NCBI GenBank assembly: GCA_030749035.1
Contig: JASMKV010000103.1
Coordinates: forward strand, 1 to 36,178
Direction of reading: 5' to 3'
DNA from: Myxococcota bacterium
GTDB taxonomy: Bacteria > Myxococcota > XYA12-FULL-58-9 > JASMKV01
Length of the DNA: 36,178 nt
The notes beneath the pieces were generated by a model. The model was not told the origin of the DNA and ran no database searches. It worked only from the letters and a program-made list of their open reading frames with translations. A program made the position numbers and the translations under genes. Position 1 is the first letter of the stretch, and every line of letters begins with the position of its first letter. Shown one piece after another: positions 10,108 through 24,314 of the stretch.

Positions 10108-11496
10108 ATGACCGACCCCAATAGCCAAAACAGCTATCTCAAAAAAGTTTTTATTCTTACCCACGAACCCGAGACGGCAGAAAGGCTCGCCAAGCATCTG
10201 CACTTTTGTCACACATCGGTATTTTCAGACGAGTCCAGGATGTGGAAGAGCCTTGCAGAACAAAAAGTGCATTTGCTGATCCTGACCTACAATGACAACG
10301 CCAATAAGTGCAAATCGCTCCTGGAAGAATTGAAACATAAACATCCACAAACACAGCGAATGCTTTGGGCAAACTTTGACCACTTACCCCAAATCATTTC
10401 CTCGGGCTCTGGTCGACTTGTTGAGCGCATTTTACCCAGTCCCGTCAAACCCCAAACAGCACAGCGTGTGATCGCGCAAAATATCGGCTTTAAACTTGAA
10501 GATGATCCAACCGTGTTGCACTACAGTGCTTCTTTTGCACGCATGGTCGAGAAATCCACCGAATTGCTCAAATGGACCGCCGAACAACTCACCTTGACCC
10601 ACGGTTCTGTCTTACGTCCCCCCCCCACAGACGCGCAGATCCTTCACTTACAATTTGTGATGCCTAAAGATGATCGCATCACGAAAATACGTGAACAATT
10701 GCCTGCCCGTTGGGCTTGGCCTAAAAAAGCCTATGGGCAAAAAATGGATCGACAACTCAAAAAGCATCCCGTCCTGCAAACCTTGGGAAAGCTGGAAAAA
10801 AACCAGGAAATCTATATCCAACAGGTGAGTGATGACACCTACCTCTACCTTGTCTTTCTGCCGTGGAAAAAGGAAGCCAAATGCACCGTCGTGCTGGGTG
10901 TGCACCACGAAACGGAACAAAGTGAGCCCTTTAAAGAAGCCTTAGATGTCATCTATGTGGATTGCTTGAGTGCGGTGTCACAATTTCACTACTCTTTGAG
11001 CGAATCGACAGAGCAAACCAATACCAACAAAAAAGGTCCTGATTATATTTCAGAATACGACTGGGTTGCTGCGCAAAATTATGTTGGACCAGATCGCAGA
11101 AATGAACCAACCCCCTTTATGAATGCTTATGCCGTCCGCGGTCGCAGAAAATCTGTGCCCAAAAAACTCACCCAATTGGGTGGTCAATTCGTCGACCAAA
11201 TGACCCCGTGGATGCGGATATTCTTCTGGCTCTACGTGGTTCTTTCAGCCATTGATACGGTGCTCACCTATATTTATGTTGGTGGTGGACGCTTTAATGA
11301 ACTCAATCCATTTTTACGCCCACTTATTCCAGACCATATGTGGCTCTTTGTGATCCTCAAAAACTCGGTGTCTTTGAGCACATTTTTTGTGGTCACGCGT
11401 TTTCAACTCTTTAGAATTGGACAGTTTTTTGCCACAATCAATGTCGCCGGCTATGCTGGATTGGACATTTATTGGGCCCTTTTACTTCTGAGTTAA
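10108..11496 (+). CDS. Degenerate receiver domain + DUF5658-like membrane protein (copy 1)
   Basis: A 462-residue protein in three parts. Residues 12-125 read as a response-regulator receiver fold (VFILTHEPETAERLAKHL, LLILTYND, RMLWANF), but the phospho-acceptor Asp position at the end of strand 3 is Thr and the strand-5 lysine motif is PSPVKP, so it is probably not phosphorylated. Residues 150-295 are an unrecognised mixed domain. A GPDRRNEPTPF motif (327-337) and a basic stretch lead to the membrane domain 365-462 with about three hydrophobic helices and FNELNPFLRPL, the hallmark of DUF5658. Residue-by-residue similarity to the gene at 19010 is clear over the whole length. Function unknown; the layout suggests a membrane-tethered sensor or regulator. 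It is divergent from the esterase gene. Confidence 0.8.
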   Translation: MTDPNSQNSYLKKVFILTHEPETAERLAKHLHFCHTSVFSDESRMWKSLAEQKVHLLILTYNDNANKCKSLLEELKHKHPQTQRMLWANFDHLPQIISSGSGRLVERILPSPVKPQTAQRVIAQNIGFKLEDDPTVLHYSASFARMVEKSTELLKWTAEQLTLTHGSVLRPPPTDAQILHLQFVMPKDDRITKIREQLPARWAWPKKAYGQKMDRQLKKHPVLQTLGKLEKNQEIYIQQVSDDTYLYLVFLPWKKEAKCTVVLGVHHETEQSEPFKEALDVIYVDCLSAVSQFHYSLSESTEQTNTNKKGPDYISEYDWVAAQNYVGPDRRNEPTPFMNAYAVRGRRKSVPKKLTQLGGQFVDQMTPWMRIFFWLYVVLSAIDTVLTYIYVGGGRFNELNPFLRPLIPDHMWLFVILKNSVSLSTFFVVTRFQLFRIGQFFATINVAGYAGLDIYWALLLLS

Positions 11497-11862: not shown

Positions 11863-12495
11863 TTAAGCTGCACGTAATTTTTCAGATAAACCCAATCTAA
11901 AAAAACGACGGGCTTGGTGATTGACCCAAGTTCTGTTGTGTTTTTTATGGCTCTTGAGCAAGTGGCGACAAAACCGTTTCGCCGTGCGATGCGCAATCCA
12001 ATAACGCTCATGCTCTTGAACTGGAACCGCATCATGCAGCGCAAAAGACGTGAAAAAGACGTCGAAAATCTGTAGTGCACTTTCTTCTATTGAATGCCCC
12101 TGATCAATCAACCAAAACCAGGAACAAATGAATTTGTCCACTTCTGCTTGAATCTCAAGCTCCAGCGCACTCACCGGACGCCCCACATGCGCACGCCACA
12201 CCACTAAAATAAAATGGCTTATGCCTTCAACAACAACACATGTCTCCTTGATGTTGCCTGTGTGTAAGCATTCAAAAGGCTGATCACCGTGTAAATGACT
12301 AAGAATCCCGGGCTCAATATACAAAGCCAATTCAGTCTCGTCGTTCATCTCTCGAATAAACATCTGCTCAGGCAAATCCTTTTGACAGCCTGGAATAAAG
12401 CCACGTGTATGCTTATCGACCAGAAATTGCTCCACACTCAAATCGAGTTCGACACCATTGAGTCCTTGCAGATATGCCTGAATAAAAGAGAGCAT
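11863..12495 (-). CDS. Unrecognised protein, second gene of a two-gene operon
   Basis: A 210-residue soluble protein of no family I recognise. It begins with a short segment MLSFIQAYLQGLNGVELDL, has a mostly acidic N-terminal half with a beta-rich stretch (ETELALYIEPGILSHL), a conserved-looking centre (CVVVEGISHFILVVWRAH), an acidic helix and a strongly basic, His- and Arg-rich C-terminus (HLLKSHKKHNR, ARRFFRLGLSEKLR). The basic tail could bind nucleic acid or acidic lipid; that is inference. AGGGGG about 10 bases before the ATG supports the start. It lies 14 bases downstream of the gene at 12510-13124 and is convergent with rpoZ. Codon use looks ordinary and no truncation is seen. Confidence 0.75.
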   Translation of the reverse strand: MLSFIQAYLQGLNGVELDLSVEQFLVDKHTRGFIPGCQKDLPEQMFIREMNDETELALYIEPGILSHLHGDQPFECLHTGNIKETCVVVEGISHFILVVWRAHVGRPVSALELEIQAEVDKFICSWFWLIDQGHSIEESALQIFDVFFTSFALHDAVPVQEHERYWIAHRTAKRFCRHLLKSHKKHNRTWVNHQARRFFRLGLSEKLRAA

Positions 12496-12509: not shown

Positions 12510-13124
12510 CTACTGAATAAAGTCTTTGGGAAAACGTCCCTTGGGCATCAAACCACGCTCATAAAGCAAACGCTCAATCCGCTCGCTGCCAGTACGTGAC
12601 CAGCGCTCATAAAGCTTCAGTAAATCCGCTTCACGTGGATTATGCATGCTCGTCGCTTCTGAAATCACATTCAAAACCTCGACCAAAGCGGCAAACTTTT
12701 CCGCCAAATCCATATAAAGCTCGACAAACATTTCGCCCTGGCGCTGTGTACCAATCAGCGACGAAAGGCTGCTGTAGGCGCCACCACCCATCGAAATATA
12801 ATAGTCGATATCGACCAAAGAGCGATCAATAAAGTCTGAGAAGAAACCAGCCATATAGAGCGCGACATCACCAAGTCGCTTAAAAGAATCGGCCTGTTCT
12901 CCAGGTGTGAGCGCATCCATCGCATTCTTATAGATGAGTGCAAGCGGCTCCTGCTGGAGCTTGACAACGCATTCGGGTTTGGAGAAATCGCAGAGCATAT
13001 TCACGAGGTAAAACTCGGTCGCCTCAGGTAAATTCAAGCCGGCCTTGGTGCTCGCCTCACCCACCTGGTCACGAAAAAACTCACTCAGATCCGTACTCAA
13101 AATAAGGTCCGATTCGTGTGCCAT
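12510..13124 (-). CDS. Unrecognised helical protein, first gene of a two-gene operon
   Basis: A 204-residue protein from ATG 13124, chosen because AAGGAG lies 7 bases upstream; the frame extends only 7 codons further. It looks almost entirely alpha-helical: LILSTDLSEFFRDQVGEA, ATEFYLVNMLCDFSK, a long middle containing LGDVALYMAGFFSDF and YYISMGGGAYSSLS, and a C-terminal LLYERGLMPKGRF. There is no signal peptide; the central hydrophobic residues look like packed helices. I do not recognise the family, but the well-defined motifs suggest a conserved cytoplasmic protein. It is cotranscribed with the gene at 11863-12495. The upstream 13125-13404 region carries a candidate promoter and a short direct repeat. 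Confidence 0.8.
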   Translation of the reverse strand: MAHESDLILSTDLSEFFRDQVGEASTKAGLNLPEATEFYLVNMLCDFSKPECVVKLQQEPLALIYKNAMDALTPGEQADSFKRLGDVALYMAGFFSDFIDRSLVDIDYYISMGGGAYSSLSSLIGTQRQGEMFVELYMDLAEKFAALVEVLNVISEATSMHNPREADLLKLYERWSRTGSERIERLLYERGLMPKGRFPKDFIQ

Positions 13125-13166
13125 GCCCAAACTCCTTGCTCGCAAGCCCCAAAAACACCTTCACTT

Positions 13167-13404: not shown

Positions 13405-14040
13405 CTAATTCTGCATTTGATTGCGCAGGTACTCTTTGACCGCCACAGCCTTTTCTTGTACCGACGCAGGAATATCTTGAACCTGCAAGAGACCGCTTAA
13501 TTTTTCGGCCAGCAATAAGGCTTTGCGAAATTGCTGTTCAGGGCTCAATGCGGCTGGTGTCGGTGGTCGAAAAGCATTCGGATCAACTTCTCGGAAGCGC
13601 TTAAGCAAGGCCCCCTTACTCACATCCAACGGTCCTGGTGTGAAAACTTCGGTGCGAATATTGTCGAGTTCAGATTGCGCTATGGTGCTTTTTTCCCGTG
13701 CCTGAGAAAGTAAATCCACGACATCAAGTGCGGGCACCTCCTGATAGTTTTCCTGGTCAAGAACCCGCGGTTCGTGATCGCGCACATAGGCATAAGAACG
13801 GGTTAATTTATTCACCGTTTCCTTATTGATGTGCAACTCCTTACGGCAATAGGCCTCAAGACTGTTATAACCCCAATCGCTATACAGATCTTGCTCCCGC
13901 ACACGTGTCAAGCAATCACCCAGCTCCACCCAAGTCGCTTTGAATCTCTTGGCGGCAGCAAGAATTTGATAACGTTCAGAGCCAGGCTCGAGTTGCTCCA
14001 GCTGCTCTTCCATTTCTCTTTGAGTTCTCGTACTACGCAT
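13405..14040 (-). CDS. Unrecognised helical protein downstream of the DEAD-box-like gene
   Basis: A 211-residue, highly charged, helical protein. An N-terminal coiled-coil-prone region (EMEEQLEQLEPGSERYQILA) leads to a segment FKATWVELGDCLTRVREQDLY and then SLEAYCRKELHINKETVNKL. This arrangement is reminiscent of small DNA-binding or adaptor domains in which a helix-turn-helix-like unit follows the phrase 'W-x-x-L'. The C-terminal third is proline- and charge-rich and ends in a helix. I cannot name the family. The ATG at 14040 has AGGAACG just upstream and lies 12 bases after the stop of the DEAD-box-like gene, so the two are almost certainly cotranscribed and may work together. Confidence 0.72.
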   Translation of the reverse strand: MRSTRTQREMEEQLEQLEPGSERYQILAAAKRFKATWVELGDCLTRVREQDLYSDWGYNSLEAYCRKELHINKETVNKLTRSYAYVRDHEPRVLDQENYQEVPALDVVDLLSQAREKSTIAQSELDNIRTEVFTPGPLDVSKGALLKRFREVDPNAFRPPTPAALSPEQQFRKALLLAEKLSGLLQVQDIPASVQEKAVAVKEYLRNQMQN

Positions 14041-14052
14041 CGTTCCTACAAC

Positions 14053-15864
14053 CTACTGTTCCATTTCGACAACAAGAACCTTCTTGCCTATCTGCGCGCC
14101 ATCAACACGTTCCATGATCAAATCGGCGATATCCTGCTTGGCTGCCAAAACCGCGTGATGACGTTTACTCATGAGCTCTGTCAAAATGCCATCATTTAAA
14201 CCCGCCAGGGCCGCTATCTTCTTGGCGACAGCACCTCTACCTTTAAAACCATCTTCAAAGCCAATATTGACTGTAATCTGGCTCAAGCCATCGGCTTTAA
14301 GAGAAGCCGCATCTTCAGCGCTGAGTTTAATCTCCTCCAGCTTAGACGCTGCTTCAACCTTACGCTCACGTCCACTTTGTGAAGTCATATTGGCATCACT
14401 AAGCTTGGTGCCTTTACGGCGCTTACGACGTCGACGTCGATCCTGACCTTGAGCTTCGCCACCTTCTGCTTCAGTCTCTTTCTCCGGCTGCGCCTGCTGT
14501 GCTGGACGCGCCTGCCTTTTTCGTTCCTTTTGGACCTGTGAAAAATAATAATGCAGCAAGAAAGAAACCACTTTGGCCGGCTCTGCACTCTCAATAAGTG
14601 CCTTCGCAATCTCGACCTGCTCCTCGCCTTCTGTCTCGGCCGCCTTCTCTACCAATTCATCAAGAATGCGCTTGGTGCGACTGGCCAAAACCTCCGCTTC
14701 ACTCGGCAACTCTTCCCACCCCAGCTTAAGCTTTAATTCTTTTAACAAGGCTCCGGCAGCTTTTTTCTCTTCAGGCTGCACAAAAGACAAAACACTGTCC
14801 ACAGTGTGCTCTTCTACTGACCGACCAATACGCTCGGAATACACCGATGAGAAATTAGGCAGCATATAGTTGATCAAAAGCTTAAATTCGCCCAAATCCA
14901 TGTCTCGGGTCGAAATATCTGTCACCACCAAAATCTTAATGGTGCCCGCCTCGATACCCGTCTTGACGCGCTCGCGCTCACGAAAGCGAACATGGCCCCA
15001 TAGCGCGTGCACGGGCAGACCTGCGCCCCGCAGATAACTTAAAACCCCCATCACCTCATCACGATTCTCGCAATAAACAATGGTTTTCTCAGAAGCCCGT
15101 GCCTCCAAGAGCGCTAAAAGCTGTTCTTTATGTTCCTTTTCTGTGTCCAAAAGAATTCCCGTATGGGTCGCATCACCTAAATGAACCTCGCGCTTTAAGA
15201 AATCAAGATTGACCCCATCCTTGGCATAGGTCGTATGTGTTTTCGCAACCTCATTGGGCAATCCATTCGAAAACGTGAAGAGTTCGAATCCCTCCGGCAC
15301 AAGCGTCAACAATTCGTTGACGGTCTTCCAAAAACCCATGCCGTACATCTCATCGGCACTGTCGAGAAACACGGTTCGAACCTGTTTGAAATCAAGATTT
15401 TCCCGACCATGATGATCCAACAATCTGCCAGGCGTTCCAATCACAACATCGACTGGATTCTCCAAAGCCGCGGCTTGACGCCCCACAGAAACACCACCGT
15501 ATACCGAGACGAGATTCAGCTCTCGACCTTCAGCTAAGTGTTCAATACTGCGATTGATTTTTTTCGCCATCTCGCGCGTTGGTGTCAGCAGCAAAGCCTG
15601 AGGTGCACCTGGCTCCGTGGTGGGCTCAGACAATTTGGTCAAAAGGGGAAGCCCCAATGCCAAAACACGATCTGCACGTATCTCACACTGAATGAAGCCG
15701 GCTTTTTCCTTGGTGGTGGCCTTAAAGACATCGGCTTGAAACTGTGAAAAGCCTTCAATATCCTGACCACGTAAACCCGTCAGCAGCTCATCCGAAAGCC
15801 CTAATGTTTCCAATCCAATATTGTATTCGACGCTAATTTCTTCGCTAAGTTCTTGTTTTTCCAT
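14053..15864 (-). CDS. DEAD-box RNA helicase-like protein with degenerate ATPase motifs and DbpA-like RNA-binding domain
   Basis: A 603-residue protein with the two RecA-like domains of a DEAD-box helicase, then a basic, disordered linker (QDRRRRRKRRKG near 475-486) and a C-terminal DbpA/CsdA-type RNA-binding domain (about 528-601: ITVNIGFEDGFKGRGAVAKK, then KKVLVVEME). Several motifs are intact in form: the Q-motif Gln, PTREMA (95-100) and TPGRLLD (144-150). The ATPase motifs are not. Walker A is CEIRADRV at 60-67 with no GKT. DEAD is DSAD at 168-171. SAT is SNG at 199-201. Motif V has RD for RG (319-320), and motif VI is ERIGRSVE (344-351). It probably binds RNA without unwinding it. It heads an operon with the gene at 13405. 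Confidence 0.88.
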   Translation of the reverse strand: MEKQELSEEISVEYNIGLETLGLSDELLTGLRGQDIEGFSQFQADVFKATTKEKAGFIQCEIRADRVLALGLPLLTKLSEPTTEPGAPQALLLTPTREMAKKINRSIEHLAEGRELNLVSVYGGVSVGRQAAALENPVDVVIGTPGRLLDHHGRENLDFKQVRTVFLDSADEMYGMGFWKTVNELLTLVPEGFELFTFSNGLPNEVAKTHTTYAKDGVNLDFLKREVHLGDATHTGILLDTEKEHKEQLLALLEARASEKTIVYCENRDEVMGVLSYLRGAGLPVHALWGHVRFRERERVKTGIEAGTIKILVVTDISTRDMDLGEFKLLINYMLPNFSSVYSERIGRSVEEHTVDSVLSFVQPEEKKAAGALLKELKLKLGWEELPSEAEVLASRTKRILDELVEKAAETEGEEQVEIAKALIESAEPAKVVSFLLHYYFSQVQKERKRQARPAQQAQPEKETEAEGGEAQGQDRRRRRKRRKGTKLSDANMTSQSGRERKVEAASKLEEIKLSAEDAASLKADGLSQITVNIGFEDGFKGRGAVAKKIAALAGLNDGILTELMSKRHHAVLAAKQDIADLIMERVDGAQIGKKVLVVEMEQ

Positions 15865-16135
15865 GACTTATTTTATCCCTTACTGACCACACACCCGTTT
15901 TATGTGTATGGCCTTACTCAATCTGATTGATTCAATATTGCTGGATCGTCACCATAATAATAGAGCGCGATCCTTGTCCCGAACCCGGGCCGGGCCTATA
16001 TCTCGCAGCGTTACAAAAACGTCAAGCAAAAAAACATCCGAATCCTTAAGCCCGAAAACGAGTTCTAAGTGCTGGAAAATGCGCTTATCTCTGGTATCCT
16101 CACTGAGTTTAGTGTTAACACCTACAGAAAATGTC

Positions 16136-18370
16136 ATGAGAAAAACACCACACTCAACATATTCACGGCGACAGCACTGGCACTATCTTGCTGCTGGCAT
16201 TCTTCTGGCTTCCGCCCTTGCATCGGGCTGCAATTGCAAAGAAAAAACCACGCTCAATCAGCAGCCTGAGTGGGCATGTCACGAGGATGATGTGATCAAT
16301 GGACGCCCTGCCCTCGATACAGAAGCTTGTCCCAACGGTGGACGCTTCGTCAAAGGTGCCTGTATGGAAAGCCGATGCGACGCCGGTGATTTGGCGCCAA
16401 ATTGCTGTCCGGGCACCTACTGCACTGCCGGTGGCGTTTGTGAGCTGCCTTTAGGCCTGCTCAAGTTTTGCACAGAAGACAGCGAATGCGACGAAGGCCA
16501 ATATTGCCTTGATCGTTCCAAAGTCTCCGCCAACTTTGCAGAAACAAAGGTCTGCGGCTTTGTCCAGGTCGATGCAGAGGGCACATGCCCTGAAGGTTTA
16601 AGCCCCTTCAACCAGCGCTGTTTACGCACACCACCGTGCGGAGGCACCTGCGCCGAAGGCAGCGTCTGTAATATTGACACCAACAATTGTGAAAGTGCGC
16701 CAACGCAAACACAAGCCGATGCAACCTGTGCACAAACTTGTGGAGACAATCAATTGCTGGTGTTTAGCGATCCAGACAATATGATATTCCATGGCTGCTG
16801 TGCCCTAAGCTGCGAGTGCATAGACCTACCCGCATTACAACCGGGCCCCTTTGGTCGATACTCCGACTTGCTCCTAAGCAACGATAAACTTTTGATTTCG
16901 GGTTACGATACTTTCTATGGTGACCTGGCCCTTGGCACCTATGAGCTCGATGGCACCGAACTTTCGATTGAATACGTTGATGGCGTACCGACCTCGGGCA
17001 CCGTCTTAGGTTCACCTGATGGCCCCCGCAACGGCATCACCACGCCTGGACCGGATATCGGTTCGCATACGTCCATGGAATTATCCAACAACACACCGCT
17101 CATCGTCTACAGAGACAACGATCAAGCTTCCTTAAAATTTGCACACAAATCCGCCAGCGCAGAGGCCTGGACCATTGCAAGCATTGATGCCGGTGTTGAC
17201 GACGACTCCGCCGACTTAGGCTATTATACGGCCATGGCCATCGACTCGACCGGCTTAGCACACGTCTCCTACTACGCCCATCGATACACCCTTGATGGCA
17301 GCATACGCAGTGGACTCAAATATGCACGGGCAAAAACGTCCACACCCACAAGTGCTGATGACTGGGAGGTTGCGGTTGTCGATTCAATACAAAGCTGCAA
17401 TGTGCCATGTGCTGCAGATGCATCCTGCGTCCTCAGTGGCGAGAGCTCGCTTTGCCTCGACCAAAGCGAATCCTGCGATACCGATTGTGCATGCGGAGAA
17501 GTCTGCGTCGATGACAACGGCAGCCCAAGCTGCTTAAAAGCGCAACCACAATTCCTGGACACACCATGCAGCGATGCATGTACTCCAAGTCAAGTGTGCG
17601 TTGACAATGGCGAAGATGCCGCCGGCTGCTTGACCCTCATGGAATCATCGTGCAACCCCGCATGCAGCGCCACACAAAGCTGTGTCGATGACGGTGCTGG
17701 AAACAATGTCTGTCGCACCCAAGCCGCAGAACCCAGCGGTGGTGGACTCCCCTACGGGGCCGGCTTATTTAGCCAAATCGCCATCCTTGAAGATACCCCT
17801 GTCTTTGTCTACTACGACAATATTCATCATACCCTGCGCGCCGCATACGCAAATTTCACCAGTGCCGCCGCGCTCTCTGCGGGCTTCACCAGCCAGAGCA
17901 TCGCATGCCATGCAGAATATGGTGTTGGTATGCACCCGAATATCGCCGTCAACAACAGCGATTTTGCGATCACTTATCAAGGACTCAGTGGAGAAAATCT
18001 TAACCTTTACCAGGCCAGTGGTTTAAACAACTTGTTTGCCGGCACAGCGCAAGTCATCGATGCAGGGGTCAGAACCAGTCAGCAATTACTCGTGGGTGCA
18101 TTTTCGACGCCCCTGTATTTAGACAATCAACTCTATATTCTTTATGCGGACCAAACGAACAACAATCTTGTGATAAGCCAGAAGCCAAGCGAGACCTGGG
18201 AGCCATCAACCATCGCATCACAAGGTGCACTCGGCAGTTTCATCAATGCACTGGGTGCCAACAACAAGATTTACACAAGCACATACAAACGCTACTTCAA
18301 TGATACCGGGATCGATTTAAGCTCCATTGCCGTTTTTAATTATGATCCGGCAAATACAAATACGCCATGA
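16136..18370 (+). CDS. Large cysteine-rich surface lipoprotein
   Basis: About 744 residues from the ATG at 16136; the same frame is open further upstream, but only from here does it read as a signal sequence (YLAAGILLASALASGC, lipid-anchored Cys32). The N-terminal 250 residues carry many disulfide-type cysteines in short Cys-x(5-8)-Cys units (CCPGTYC, CTEDSECDEGQYC, CGGTCAEGSVC), a style common in Myxococcota and Bradymonadota surface proteins. The rest looks like a beta-propeller of repeats such as LKFAHK, AMAIDSTGLAHVSYYA and LKYARA, interrupted around 420-520 by a second block of cysteine units (CSDACTPSQVC, CNPACSATQSC). Ligand unknown; outer-membrane, surface-exposed placement is inferred. 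It is divergent from the DEAD-box-like gene; the 271-base gap between them shows no other supported gene. Confidence 0.85.
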   Translation: MRKTPHSTYSRRQHWHYLAAGILLASALASGCNCKEKTTLNQQPEWACHEDDVINGRPALDTEACPNGGRFVKGACMESRCDAGDLAPNCCPGTYCTAGGVCELPLGLLKFCTEDSECDEGQYCLDRSKVSANFAETKVCGFVQVDAEGTCPEGLSPFNQRCLRTPPCGGTCAEGSVCNIDTNNCESAPTQTQADATCAQTCGDNQLLVFSDPDNMIFHGCCALSCECIDLPALQPGPFGRYSDLLLSNDKLLISGYDTFYGDLALGTYELDGTELSIEYVDGVPTSGTVLGSPDGPRNGITTPGPDIGSHTSMELSNNTPLIVYRDNDQASLKFAHKSASAEAWTIASIDAGVDDDSADLGYYTAMAIDSTGLAHVSYYAHRYTLDGSIRSGLKYARAKTSTPTSADDWEVAVVDSIQSCNVPCAADASCVLSGESSLCLDQSESCDTDCACGEVCVDDNGSPSCLKAQPQFLDTPCSDACTPSQVCVDNGEDAAGCLTLMESSCNPACSATQSCVDDGAGNNVCRTQAAEPSGGGLPYGAGLFSQIAILEDTPVFVYYDNIHHTLRAAYANFTSAAALSAGFTSQSIACHAEYGVGMHPNIAVNNSDFAITYQGLSGENLNLYQASGLNNLFAGTAQVIDAGVRTSQQLLVGAFSTPLYLDNQLYILYADQTNNNLVISQKPSETWEPSTIASQGALGSFINALGANNKIYTSTYKRYFNDTGIDLSSIAVFNYDPANTNTP

Positions 18371-18869: not shown

Positions 18870-19009
18870 ACCTTATGGCTGCTTGCCTACAATGAAGTGA
18901 CTGATTTCGCAAGTCTTTAGAACAAAGTCACCGGAAATAAAGAAATGAAACAGGGAAGTCTATTCCTTATTCCTTGACGTTTAGTGCTGGTATTTCTAGC
19001 TTGGACATC

Positions 19010-20392
19010 ATGAGCCAATCCACACCAACAACGCTACTCGTGATCGCCTCGAACCCCAAAGATGCGGACCTGCTACAAGATATTTTTTCGGACTTCCCCT
19101 GTACACAAGTCGAATCTTACCCTGAAGCATTAAACCATGTCTGCGCTCACGCGGTTGCTGGCATCTTCGTTGCCTTTGAAACAGACTGTGCTGAGATTCT
19201 GGGCTTTATGCAAGAAGCCAACAAACATCAACCAGACGCACAAAAGATACTATGGGCCGACTACACTCAACTTCCTGCAATTATTGGCACCCCTTTAGGC
19301 GATCTTCTCAACCGCATCATGCCCAAACCGGGCAAAGCTGAAACCATGCAAAGGGTCATTGCCGAACTCTTTGACACCGGCAATTCAACCAGTCCAAATG
19401 ACACTTTTTACGAACAGACACACGCCGCCTTTGACTGGCTCAATGCTGAAAAGCTCTTGCGTTGGTCGACCACATCCGCCTGCCACATCAGTGGTTGCGT
19501 GCTCAGATGTCTACCCACCGACCTTCGGGCCGGACAAATGCAATTTGTGCTCAAAAATGATGACGCCGCGGATGCCCTCATAGAGAGATTAAACGACCAC
19601 TGGGGCAGCCCCTATAAAAGCGCAAACACATCGATGTCCTTGCGCGAAAAACAACACCCTGTGGTTAAGCATATTGGTCGATTATGGAAACCACAAACCC
19701 TTTATATGCGTCAGGTACACGACCAGGAGACCTATGTTTATCTTATTGTTCTACCCTGGGAAAAAAAGCCAAAACTGACCATCATCCTGGGTATTCACTC
19801 AACCTCAATCAAACTTCCCTACACACAAATACTTGAAGGCATTCATCAAGATGCTTTTGACGAGGTCTCCCAATTCGTCGTTCCAACCAGAATAGGCGAC
19901 CTACGAGAACTCGATGGCCCCCAGTACATCTCAGAATACGATTGGGTCATGACCCACAGCTATCTCGGCCCCGATCGGCGTGCCGAGCCGACCCCCTTTC
20001 TCAACCAATACGCCTATCACGGTAAAAGAAAAACAATCCCCAAAATTATAGAAGACGGTCAGGGCGCATTTGTGGACCGAATGGCACCATGGGTCCTTTA
20101 TCTCTTCGTCTTTTATCTTTTTCTCTCATCGTTGGATACATGCTTCACCTATTGGTTTGTGCGCAGTGGCGATGTGATTGAACTCAACCCTCTACTGCGT
20201 CCCCTGATCACAGAACATCCCTGGATTTTCGTCTTCGTAAAAAATCTATTTTCTATTTCTTCTTTTCTTCTGGTGGCCCGCTTGCAACTTTTCCGTATCG
20301 GCAAAATTCTCTTGCCATTTAATGTTGCAGTGTATTTCTGTCTGGATATCTATTGGTTTATACTGGTCGGACCTAAGCTGATGGGATTTTAA
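19010..20392 (+). CDS. Degenerate receiver domain + DUF5658-like membrane protein (copy 2)
   Basis: About 460 residues from ATG 19010 (GGA a few bases upstream). It is a full-length paralogue of the protein at 10108-11496: LLVIASNPKDADLL receiver-like start, Ala in place of the phospho-Asp (GIFVAFETD), KILWADYTQLP, the middle domain with YMRQVHDQETYVYLIVLPW, the GPDRRAEPTPFLNQYA motif, and the DUF5658-like end with LDTCFTYWF, IELNPLLRPL and three hydrophobic helices. Copies share architecture and many positions, but are clearly diverged, so the duplication is old. Function unknown; likely inner-membrane. The stop lies 3 bases before the GTG start of the glycosyltransferase-like gene at 20396, suggesting cotranscription with it. 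Confidence 0.8.
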   Translation: MSQSTPTTLLVIASNPKDADLLQDIFSDFPCTQVESYPEALNHVCAHAVAGIFVAFETDCAEILGFMQEANKHQPDAQKILWADYTQLPAIIGTPLGDLLNRIMPKPGKAETMQRVIAELFDTGNSTSPNDTFYEQTHAAFDWLNAEKLLRWSTTSACHISGCVLRCLPTDLRAGQMQFVLKNDDAADALIERLNDHWGSPYKSANTSMSLREKQHPVVKHIGRLWKPQTLYMRQVHDQETYVYLIVLPWEKKPKLTIILGIHSTSIKLPYTQILEGIHQDAFDEVSQFVVPTRIGDLRELDGPQYISEYDWVMTHSYLGPDRRAEPTPFLNQYAYHGKRKTIPKIIEDGQGAFVDRMAPWVLYLFVFYLFLSSLDTCFTYWFVRSGDVIELNPLLRPLITEHPWIFVFVKNLFSISSFLLVARLQLFRIGKILLPFNVAVYFCLDIYWFILVGPKLMGF

Positions 20393-20395
20393 ACC

Positions 20396-22363
20396 GTGCT
20401 TCCATTAAAACCGACATTCATCACTCTAATCGGATTAGTGTTCGCCGCTTTTATCTATATGGCCTCGGGCCTGCTTCTGGATATAAACCTGCACCAAGCG
20501 CTGGGGGCGACAGCCATGATATTTTTCTCTGCCCTAGGCTATGGCCTGCATTATACGCAGAGTTTAAACATCTCATCAAAGAGAGCACTCTACCTCATCA
20601 GCATCATGCTTGGCCTTGCTGCGCTCAGTCTGGGCACAACCCTGCTGGGTTTTTGTCAGATCCTTCATGGCACAACGCTCGCTCTTATCGTTTTTCCCGG
20701 CATTGCCCTTCTTATCCCTAAGGCGCGAAGTCTTTTCGGCGCGTGGCGTGCGGAACTCAATACTCAGATCGCTTGGTCGAGCCTGCTGCTGGCCATCGTG
20801 ATATGCACAGCTCTTTTCATCACCATCGTGCCCTCCATCCTCGCACCTCTTTGGTATGATGGTCTTGTCTACCACTTGGCTCTGCCTAAATACTATTGGT
20901 TGCATGGGGGCATCACCCAAGCTCCGCACAACTTCTTTTCGCTTTTTCCTCAAGCCGTCGAAATGCTTTATCTCCTGGCCTTGGGCTTAGGGGGAGAACT
21001 CGCACCTCGATTACTCAACGGTGGCTTTGGGCTTCTCACACTTTTTCTGCTTTATGAAGCCGGTGGCCCAACGCTTCACAAAAACAATCGAATGCTCTCA
21101 GTCTTGCTCCTCATGGGAACCCCCTATTGGTATATCAGCACACAGATGGTGTTTATCGAAAACGCCGTGATTGCCTTTCTTCTGGCAACCTTGATGCTTT
21201 TTGAACATCTTCAAAAGCAACACCATGATAAAGCCCTTTGCGCGCTGGGTCTCTTCTGCGGAACCATCATTGCCTCAAAATACAACGCCGCCGCACTCAT
21301 CGCTCCCTTCATCCTCTGGATGCTTTATCATGCGACCCGGAAAAACCCTGGGCGCCAACTTCGTTTGTTTTGTATACCGATGGGCCTGGCAGGGCTGCCT
21401 TGGTACATCCACAATATACTTGTGGCCAAGAATCCCTTCGCGCCACTCATTTGGGGCTACCCCTCCTGGTCAACAGAAGAGTTGCATACCTATCAAAATC
21501 ATCTCGCCCAATTTGGTTTAAGCGATGCCCCCATCATGCACAAAATCACCGGTATCGCGCAGGCCCTGATTTCTCCCGAACTCTTTCAAGGGTTAAGTTT
21601 GGGGCACGGCACATTTCTTCTGCTCGCCCTTGTGCTTGTGTTTTATCGAAAGTCACCCTGGCAACAATCCAAACACTATTGGTGCATTGCCCTATGGGGG
21701 GCACTCCTTTGGACCTTTACATCACAACAAACACGCCTCCTTTTGCCTGTCGAAGCACTCTTGATTGTGGCTGCCATGCGCTCTTTCGCCCCCCTCGCTT
21801 TAGCGCGCCCTATTCGCGCCGCCATCATTATCCTGCTTGTGCCCTGTGTGAGCTATGGTTTTTACAGTGGCTTTAATGCGTGTGAAAAAGGCTTTTCCCC
21901 CTGGCCACATCTCAATTCCTCTGCCTCTCAAGAAAACTATATACGTAAGCATATTGCTTCCTTTAACGTCACTCAAATCGCCAATCGGCTGCCCAAGAAC
22001 ACCCAGCGCACGCTCCTCGTCGGCGAAACAAGAACCTATTATATGAACCGTGCTTTCATTCCTATTACCGGATGGAACACAAATCCCCTGGTCAAAAGTG
22101 TTCAAGGCTGTCGGTCGCCTGAGTGCATCAAAAACAAGCTCCGGAAAAAACACATCGACTCCATCATCCGCATCCCCAGTGAAGAGACACGTCTACAGAA
22201 CAGCTTTGATTTCTTTCGCAACTTAAACAAGGAAGAAGTTGAGCTCTATCATCTTTTCTTCAAGAGCCTACCCGCGATACAAAAGCAACCTGGCGGGCCT
22301 GCCCTTTATCTTCTCGACGAAAAACTTCTCGAACTCTACAGCGGTCTTAATGCACAAAGCTGA
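20396..22363 (+). CDS. GT39-like integral membrane glycosyltransferase
   Basis: A 655-residue multispanning protein (about ten or more hydrophobic helices) beginning at a GTG 3 bases after the DUF5658-like gene. The first periplasmic loop has WYDGLVYHLALP (Asp155), matching the conserved acidic residue of GT-C/dolichyl-phosphate-mannose mannosyltransferase-type enzymes, and IASKYNAAALIAP and GLPWYIHNI are further family marks. The C-terminal soluble part has LLVGETRTYYMNR. It is homologous to the protein on the opposite strand at 22336-24192, with the same ordered motifs. The role is transfer of a sugar from a polyprenyl-phosphate carrier to an extracytoplasmic acceptor; acceptor unknown. Its 3' end overlaps that convergent paralogue by 28 bases. 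Confidence 0.85.
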   Translation: MLPLKPTFITLIGLVFAAFIYMASGLLLDINLHQALGATAMIFFSALGYGLHYTQSLNISSKRALYLISIMLGLAALSLGTTLLGFCQILHGTTLALIVFPGIALLIPKARSLFGAWRAELNTQIAWSSLLLAIVICTALFITIVPSILAPLWYDGLVYHLALPKYYWLHGGITQAPHNFFSLFPQAVEMLYLLALGLGGELAPRLLNGGFGLLTLFLLYEAGGPTLHKNNRMLSVLLLMGTPYWYISTQMVFIENAVIAFLLATLMLFEHLQKQHHDKALCALGLFCGTIIASKYNAAALIAPFILWMLYHATRKNPGRQLRLFCIPMGLAGLPWYIHNILVAKNPFAPLIWGYPSWSTEELHTYQNHLAQFGLSDAPIMHKITGIAQALISPELFQGLSLGHGTFLLLALVLVFYRKSPWQQSKHYWCIALWGALLWTFTSQQTRLLLPVEALLIVAAMRSFAPLALARPIRAAIIILLVPCVSYGFYSGFNACEKGFSPWPHLNSSASQENYIRKHIASFNVTQIANRLPKNTQRTLLVGETRTYYMNRAFIPITGWNTNPLVKSVQGCRSPECIKNKLRKKHIDSIIRIPSEETRLQNSFDFFRNLNKEEVELYHLFFKSLPAIQKQPGGPALYLLDEKLLELYSGLNAQS

Positions 22364-24192
22364 ATACCACTTTTATCAAAGAGCAAGTCACATGAGTCCA
22401 TCACCGGACGCAGCTTCTTCGCAGACACGGGCGGCATGGGAAAGTAGTCGTAGGTCGCGGTTAAACGTTGAAGTTCGTGGTGATTGATGAAGAGATGGGT
22501 GATCCCTTCTGAAGCAAGTTTCCTCAAAAATGCATCCGTATCCGAACTTTCTTCCAACCACATGCGTGTGTCGTTAAGATCCCATGCAGAGGCAAAGTGC
22601 ACCTCGTGGTCAAAATATAAAATTCTTGTTTCACCAATCAAAAGCAACTTCGCTTCTTTGGGCAAATTCCCCGCCGCCCACCGCGCCCCTTCATAGTAGG
22701 GAAGATTCTGCTTTAAATAATCCTCCTCAGAAACCTTCCCCAGCACATGCTCAAAGGCGGCGCCTTCGCGATTATAATAGGCATGCGCAAAGCCGACAAA
22801 AGTCATATAATTTTTAATTGTAAAGCCAACCACCAAACACAAAAGGAAAAACCAGGCGTAGCGCTTGCGTTTGAACCAGTGCAACATTTCGTGTAACCCC
22901 AGGAGCGCAATCAGTCCCAACACAGGATAAATAAAGCGGGTGTTCTGTGCAAAACAAGCCCACAGCAACATATAAACCACACAAAAAAAGAGCCAAGGGC
23001 GCGATTGCGGTGCACGTAAAGCCCCAATCACTGAAAAGACAAGAAGCAGAGCAAAGAACTTGCCTATTTCCGCCCCTGAACCCAGCCCATCAAAACTCCA
23101 AAATGCGTTATAGAGAAGCCCCATCAAGCCTGCAGGCGTGAAATCATGGTGTGCAATATCTTTTGTCAGGTTCATGGTCGCATGTGCTGCTCCCGGATGC
23201 TCACCAAACCACTGACTTAACGCTGGATGAAAGGGGTTGCCGAAGCTTAGCCCATTGCGAATATACCAGGGCGAAGCCACAAGAAGCGCAATCAGCACAT
23301 GTATGCCTGCTAAAAAAATGCGCCTATTGAAAACTTCTTTTTTCCAAACCAAAAAGCATAAGCCGCCAGCCAAGGGCATATAAATGCCCGTGTATTTGCT
23401 TCCAGCCATCAAACCACCAACCAAAGACGCTAAAATAAGATAGCGCACAGAAGCTGCATTTGAGAGGCTCAAGGCCTTGGCCAGCGCTAAGGCATACAAG
23501 AGTCCTAAGCACGTTAAAGGTATCGCAAGCGATGTCATTGTTGCCATCAAGGCAAAAGCTGGAGCCGATAAAAGAAGAGCGCTGGCAAGACAAGGTAGAT
23601 TTTCGCCTTCGTCAGGAAAGACATGACGCGCGAACGCATAAATCCCAAAAAACACCCCTGTATACATGAACACGATGAATAATTTAGAGAGCGTCGCCCC
23701 ACCAAGTTCAAAAAGGGTTCCAAGAAAAAGACCAAGATATGCAGGAAACCCCGTGTGCAACACGGCGGGCAACGTCGTCATCTCTCCCCGGATAAAATAC
23801 TGATGGGGCAAACCCACATGGTAATAAAGTGCATCGTAGAAAACTTCGGGAACGAACGCACCACAAAGCACCGAGCCTGTTAAAAAGACCACAGGTGTAA
23901 GCTTCAAAACAAGCGCGCCCTGCGGGCCAGAAAAGCTTGGGCGTGGCGCCCCACGGAAAAACCAGTATAGAGTGCCCAACACTAAGCCAAGGCCCCCGCC
24001 CCAAACAATCACTTGCAAATGCAGAAGGCCTAAAAAACCTAAACCTGTGATCAACAAAGACCACGTCAAGAGCCCAAAGAAAAAACTCCAGAGGACCTTT
24101 TCAAGCCCTGTGCTTTCGGGCAAACAATCGCCCATACGTCGTCCGCTGACATACAAAAGGCCTAAGACCAAAATGATATAGAACAACGCCAT
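22336..24192 (-). CDS. GT39-like integral membrane glycosyltransferase (convergent paralogue)
   Basis: About 618 residues from ATG 24192 (a GTG two codons upstream at 24198 is possible). It has many hydrophobic helices and shares ordered motifs with the protein at 20396: FYDALYYHVGLP (Asp120 in the first large loop), AGSKYTGIYMPL, SPWYIRNGLSFGNPF, FIYPVLGL, LLIGETRILYFDH and a C-terminal small domain ending LLFDKSGIQL. As in the paralogue, this is the fold of GT-C lipid-linked-sugar transferases. The two genes point at each other and overlap by 28 bases at their 3' ends, so each stop codon lies in the other's coding sequence. Donor and acceptor unknown. Confidence 0.86.
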   Translation of the reverse strand: MALFYIILVLGLLYVSGRRMGDCLPESTGLEKVLWSFFFGLLTWSLLITGLGFLGLLHLQVIVWGGGLGLVLGTLYWFFRGAPRPSFSGPQGALVLKLTPVVFLTGSVLCGAFVPEVFYDALYYHVGLPHQYFIRGEMTTLPAVLHTGFPAYLGLFLGTLFELGGATLSKLFIVFMYTGVFFGIYAFARHVFPDEGENLPCLASALLLSAPAFALMATMTSLAIPLTCLGLLYALALAKALSLSNAASVRYLILASLVGGLMAGSKYTGIYMPLAGGLCFLVWKKEVFNRRIFLAGIHVLIALLVASPWYIRNGLSFGNPFHPALSQWFGEHPGAAHATMNLTKDIAHHDFTPAGLMGLLYNAFWSFDGLGSGAEIGKFFALLLVFSVIGALRAPQSRPWLFFCVVYMLLWACFAQNTRFIYPVLGLIALLGLHEMLHWFKRKRYAWFFLLCLVVGFTIKNYMTFVGFAHAYYNREGAAFEHVLGKVSEEDYLKQNLPYYEGARWAAGNLPKEAKLLLIGETRILYFDHEVHFASAWDLNDTRMWLEESSDTDAFLRKLASEGITHLFINHHELQRLTATYDYFPMPPVSAKKLRPVMDSCDLLFDKSGIQLCALRPL

Positions 24193-24314
24193 CAACACTC
24201 TGCTTTATCAAAGAGATGTAGTCTCAATATGTTATGCCGAAAAAGGCCCCTAACGCAAAGGCCATCTTCTTGGTCAAAAATCTTTCCTATAGACGCAAAA
24301 ACAGCTACAACGTC

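Follow-up and report, generated by a model that had tools for sequence, protein, structure and literature searches.

The window, a stretch of 36,178 nucleotides from a Myxococcota bacterium, contains a DEAD-box gene that, instead of being broken, probably encodes a functional pseudo-helicase able to bind RNA. The favored explanation, held with fair confidence, is that the protein is an ATP-independent RNA-binding factor retained from a helicase found throughout the order, and that it serves as a scaffold, passive chaperone or placeholder. Its altered motifs point strongly to a loss of ATP use and turnover, while the parts that it has kept suggest RNA binding and a scaffold or chaperone role. 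A concerted loss of this kind, giving a pseudo-helicase with a preserved tail, had been proposed in the original prediction, and it is borne out by intact orthologues at the same genomic position, by faster evolution centred on the core, and by conservation of the tail.

Gene and family membership

The gene is a 603-aa open reading frame (15864-14053, minus strand) that starts with ATG and has no internal stops (Table 1). The protein matches both Pfam models of the core, DEAD (PF00270, 74.6 bits) and Helicase_C (PF00271, 46 bits), above their cut-offs. The closest solved structures are likewise DEAD-box proteins (MJ0669 1hv8, Hera 4kbf and CshA 5ivl; E 3e-43 to 2e-40), and structures of DEAD-box RNA helicases align along residues 11-380, covering both RecA domains. 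By homology, with two RecA-like domains and both Pfam matches, the protein belongs to the DEAD-box subfamily and has the standard domain order, as originally predicted. Its scores against the NCBIfam equivalogs for CshA, DbpA and DeaD are far under the cut-offs.

Table 1. Features of the helicase locus, in window positions (residue numbers refer to the 603-aa protein)
Feature	Position	Strand	Basis or remarks
Divergent upstream gene, synteny marker	15902..18370	+	Genes next to the orthologue in five other genomes are 33-47% identical to it
DEAD-box pseudo-helicase gene	14053..15864	-	603 aa; ORF, Pfam DEAD and Helicase_C, PDB relatives
Q motif remnant SQFQ, residues 40-43	15736..15747	-	Q43 kept, V42F, upstream aromatic F18L; alignment to 30 intact proteins
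Degenerate motif I / Walker A CEIRADRV, residues 60-67, replacing AxTGSGKT	15664..15687	-	0/6 invariant residues kept
Motif Ia PTREMA, residues 95-100, retained, RNA-facing	15565..15582	-	4/5 kept
GG motif YGGV, residues 122-125, retained, RNA-facing	15490..15501	-	3/3 kept
Motif Ib TPGRLLD, residues 144-150, retained, RNA-facing	15415..15435	-	5/5 kept
Degenerate motif II DSAD, residues 168-171, catalytic Glu lost	15352..15363	-	Alignment to intact orthologues
Degenerate motif III SNG, residues 199-201, replacing SAT	15262..15270	-	Alignment to intact orthologues
Altered motif V TDISTRDMD, residues 315-323, RG to RD (320-321)	14896..14922	-	4/7 kept
Degenerate motif VI ERIGRSVE, residues 344-351, replacing HRxGRTGR; His and last Arg lost	14812..14835	-	3/7 kept
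Arg/Lys-rich linker, residues 476-484	14413..14439	-	Present in all orthologues (alignment)
C-terminal domain, residues 525-603, order-specific, possibly remotely DbpA-RBD-like	14056..14292	-	59-66% identity to orthologues; weak PF03880 match in orthologues
Downstream neighbour, 211-aa protein of no recognised family	13405..14040	-	Adjoins helicase in 6/7 other order genomes

Loss of the ATP motifs

The motifs were compared with those of 30 intact DEAD-box proteins, comprising order orthologues, phylum relatives and two paralogues from the same genome. These are at least 95% invariant in 72 columns of the core, 42 of which the window protein keeps. The assignment of motifs to an ATP side and an RNA side of the core is the standard one. 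Invariant residues are kept at 9 of 24 positions in the ATP motifs (Q, I, II, III and VI), at 19 of 25 in the RNA-facing motifs and at 14 of 23 elsewhere. ATP-motif positions are lost preferentially, whether compared with the RNA motifs (Fisher p 0.0096) or with all other positions (p 0.021), given class boundaries that were the analysts' choice within the motif scheme of PMC9539457. Retention in the RNA motifs is not clearly higher than at the other conserved positions, so the clear signal is ATP-site loss and not extra RNA-site constraint.

The lesions named in the original prediction, at Walker A, DEAD, SAT, the RG of motif V and the His and final Arg of motif VI, are all real when set against intact orthologues; in motif I, TGSGKT has become IRADRV at residues 62-67. 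PTREMA and TPGRLLD had been described as intact and do retain nearly all and all of their invariant residues, respectively, and the RNA-facing motifs of RecA1 (Ia, GG and Ib) together keep 12 of 13. The Q motif, also described as intact, is so only in part: its glutamine remains, but F18 is now L and V42 is now F. The RecA2 losses include the Q of QxxR and the G of motif V.

Some residues on the ATP side survive, namely Q43, the D of TDxxxR and two motif VI arginines, and these would be the starting point for a protein that is still a nucleotide-dependent enzyme working through relocated or different catalytic residues. However, SAT has been lost, along with the Lys and Thr of Walker A, the Glu of DEAD and the final Arg of motif VI, and the protein does not carry the set of motifs expected of an active enzyme (GKT in motif I, DEAD, SAT and HRxGRxxR). 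According to PMC4402597, a single Glu to Lys change in DEAD abolishes the ATPase of RhlB (citing Vanzo 1998), and an arginine-finger mutant of DbpA is inactive (citing Elles and Uhlenbeck 2008). Continued enzymatic activity is thus extremely improbable.

Orthologues and locus

The order was sampled with eight genomes, including the genome of the window (G000) and that of Deltaproteobacteria bacterium RIFOXYA12_FULL_58_15. Each of the eight has exactly one helicase match at E <= 1e-50, and in a tree of the core the eight proteins form one clade (support 98/100). Orthology follows from microsynteny on one or both sides, the single copy and this clade; the shared neighbours, the lack of a second copy and the clade support likewise rule out that a paralogue is being compared. 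Catalytic motifs are all canonical in six of the seven other orthologues; the intact ones include L043 (Deltaproteobacteria bacterium RIFOXYA12_FULL_58_15) and those of G001, G002, G003, G004 and G007. Six fully intact orthologues indicate, by motif content, that the ancestor was active.

The 211-aa neighbour matches no Pfam family at E <= 0.001, in agreement with the earlier description of an unrecognised operon partner, although its conservation beside the helicase elsewhere in the order means that it is not unique to the window. Its family is absent from G003, and a cysS-like ORF is next in several order genomes. It may be that the window protein regulates this neighbour, or another helicase, by competing for RNA or by forming a complex, as is often the case with pseudoenzymes. 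Consistent with such a role, the neighbour adjoins the helicase in six other genomes, the degenerate case in G005 included, intact paralogues are present in the same genome, and Utp25 has been proposed as a helicase cofactor (PMC9539457). However, the same gene pair occurs where the helicase is intact, so that nothing about it is specific to the pseudo form, and regulation of this kind is improbable.

Farther downstream are two more genes (11863-12495 and 12510-13145, minus strand) that encode 210-aa proteins of no recognised family; both have relatives near the helicase in G001 and G004, and that at 11863-12495 also in G006. Two proteins flanking the helicase locus (10108-11496 and 18974-20392, plus strand) have a C-terminal DUF5658 domain. 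PMT_2-type mannosyltransferase-like genes at 20396-22363 (plus strand) and 22336-24198 (minus strand) are convergent with a slight overlap, and a spore photoproduct lyase family protein (PF20903; 6474-7472, plus strand) adjoins glycosyltransferase and short-chain dehydrogenase genes.

The original prediction had suggested looking for an intact DEAD-box paralogue in the same genome, and two, L001 and L002, are present with their motifs intact. The genome also encodes a small 373-aa DEAD-like helicase (L003, G000:C188) with DEPD as motif II, TAT as motif III and an intact GKT; a G004 protein (L079, DEVD) is similar to it, and the two apparently belong to a conserved atypical family.

Divergence of core and tail

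Identity between the window protein and its intact orthologues is 32-37% in RecA1, 28-32% in RecA2 and 59-66% in the last 79 residues; the corresponding values for pairs of intact orthologues are 54-74%, 67-80% and 64-86%. Branch lengths were estimated with the species topology fixed, and the branch leading to G000 exceeds that of G001 5.6-fold for RecA1 (1.65/0.29), 15-fold for RecA2 (3.29/0.23), 3.5-fold for the tail (0.43/0.12) and 1.7-fold for the neighbouring gene, while rpoB+rpoC are equal (0.178/0.181). The tail itself, at 0.43 compared with 0.08-0.27 in intact relatives, has evolved somewhat faster. Because the rpoBC branches are equal and the core branches far longer, the acceleration is a property of this gene, chiefly of its ATPase core. 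A fast-evolving genome as the cause of the core divergence is ruled out by the normal rpoBC rate.

It could be that the core has become little more than a passive remnant, and that the gene is kept for a linker and C-terminal domain that bind a target RNA or partner, with RecA domains that need only fold. Core branches that have lengthened 6-15 fold above a tail still 59-66% identical are what such a model would predict, as is a RecA2 domain without the Q of QxxR and the G of motif V. On the other hand, matches continue to cover the greater part of each RecA domain, the RNA-facing motifs of RecA1 are almost complete, and no truncation or indel decay was seen. A passive core is an unlikely alternative to an RNA-binding factor in which RecA1 also takes part.

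The C-terminal domain

A profile built from the eight tails finds its match in 8/8 order genomes and in 0/187 other genomes of the phylum. The original prediction described a DbpA-like C-terminal domain, and this stands only in part. PF03880 aligns nearly end to end with the tails of six of the eight order proteins, at sub-threshold scores (E 0.0016-0.017; 15.6-18.8 bits, cut-off 25.6), but the window's own tail has no Pfam hit and does not significantly resemble any known RNA-binding domain. An hhalign comparison of the tail with three local DbpA-type tails gave a probability of 6.8%, nothing significant was found among PDB profiles, and Foldseek with a model of the tail returned no matches at E 0.001 or better. 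An ordinary DbpA RBD is thus unsupported at threshold by Pfam or hhalign. The predicted secondary structure is compatible with a beta-alpha-beta-beta-alpha-beta order, but at a pLDDT of about 60-69; single-sequence and full-length models, the latter an AF2 model built from only two sequences, show RRM-like element orders at low confidence (pLDDT 63 and 46). A remote kinship to the DbpA RRM is plausible on these profiles and models. No canonical PF03880 domain was found in G000, G004 or G005, and five other order genomes encode separate proteins of this kind.

Maintenance of the gene

All 603 codons are open, with no frameshift, stop or truncation seen. Read in frame, the core has a codon score of 0.216 bits per codon, inside the 0.17-0.34 spanned by the genes around it; the other frames score 0 or less. 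When the G001 core was allowed to decay neutrally in simulation to 34% identity (200 runs), a mean of 12 stops accumulated, with a minimum of 4 and never 0. Neutral decay would have left about 12 stops in a frame that is in fact open, so this is not a pseudogene, and together with the codon bias the open frame indicates selection for a full-length protein. Two features expected of a pseudohelicase are present: the catalytic motifs are gone from a family that is otherwise active, judging from the motifs of six orthologues, and the gene is maintained as a functional protein, judging from the open frame, codon bias, simulation and tail conservation.

The original prediction was to be abandoned if the orthologues had intact motifs while the window gene proved to be a recent pseudogene. 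The orthologues are intact; a recent pseudogene is contradicted by the open frame, the codon bias and the conserved tail. A gene decaying toward a pseudogene, or an assembly artefact, would fit intact orthologues, a very long core branch and the reliance on a single fragmented assembly, since the G000 lineage is represented by one genome in 527 contigs. Against this are the neighbour-like codon usage, the stops expected from the simulation, the conserved tail and a second degenerate yet open orthologue in G005, and scattered, motif-centred changes within an intact frame are unlike assembly error. Decay or artefact is therefore very unlikely.

A second degenerate orthologue

The orthologue in G005 (L019 / L058, G005:C170, L058 2634-4565) is partly degenerate, with replacements that differ from those of the window protein: it has GSGKI, NDAD, SSS and HRAGRIEG, an intact tail and an open frame. 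In both proteins the same 12 invariant columns have changed (hypergeometric p 0.003), with an identical replacement in 1 and different ones in 11. A tree of rpoB+rpoC+Mfd+SecA (4816 columns) places G005 with G002/G004/G006 (97/94) and G000 with G001 (85/89), a grouping that implies independent losses. The core tree joins G000 and G005 weakly (56/86), with a risk of long-branch attraction, and the marker data do not reject a forced G000+G005 clade (AU p 0.095). Independent loss is the reading preferred, but not proved, by the marker trees, with shared ancestral loss as the alternative; the loss in G005 is probably independent of that in G000 and less advanced.

It may be that a single-copy, order-conserved active helicase has been converted in place to a bacterial DEAD-box pseudo-helicase at least twice within one order, fully in G000 and partly in G005, with its C-terminal RNA-binding module preserved to give an ATP-independent RNA scaffold. 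This broader reading is tentative and may well not hold. Relatives that still carry, at this locus, what is presumably the active ancestral form, together with the intermediate-looking G005, amount to a natural experiment on what ATP cycling, as opposed to RNA binding by core and tail, contributes to bacterial DEAD-box function.

Proposed role and comparison with known systems

For the window protein as an ATP-independent RNA-binding factor, the following sequence of events can be envisaged. The family ancestor would have been an active RNA helicase directed to its target by the tail, and in the G000 lineage the ATP machinery would have disappeared as selection on it relaxed or changed. The RNA (or RNP) targeted by the ancestor would still be recognised through the C-terminal domain and Arg-rich linker, and the RNA-facing surface of RecA1 (Ia, GG and Ib) would have been preserved as the ATP pocket was dismantled. 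With these parts kept and the pocket gone, the protein might dock on RNA, for example in ribosome or RNP assembly, as a scaffold, chaperone or placeholder instead of cycling ATP. The paralogues L001 and L002 could supply ATP-driven unwinding in the same genome.

A search of open-licence papers found no published bacterial DEAD-box pseudohelicase; the only pseudohelicases named as such in that literature are Deinococcus radiodurans PriA and yeast Utp25, neither of which is a bacterial RNA helicase. The nearest comparison is with the intact order orthologues, which are the same gene by synteny and phylogeny and share the domain order, Arg-rich linker and C-terminal domain, but in which the ATP and RNA motifs are all canonical and RecA2 is 67-80% identical among themselves and about 30% identical to the window protein. 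DbpA and YxiN have a similar layout of core plus C-terminal RNA-targeting domain, and the RRM of DbpA recruits it to hairpin 92 of 23S (PMC7973409). The window's orthologues match PF03880 weakly, although its own tail is below threshold. D. radiodurans PriA is also a bacterial helicase orthologue that has lost its ATPase motifs in one lineage while keeping nucleic-acid binding, which in that case was shown biochemically; however, it is a DNA replication-restart helicase, neither DEAD-box nor RNA-related (PMC4504706). Utp25/Def, a pseudohelicase of the eukaryotic SSU processome, is a DEAD-box-like protein with two RecA domains and vestigial motifs that has been proposed as a catalytically dead cofactor or scaffold, but it is eukaryotic and essential, and mutation of its motif Ia has no growth effect (PMC9539457). 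Unlike Utp25, the window protein keeps a different C-terminal domain, and intact orthologues persist at the same position within its own order.
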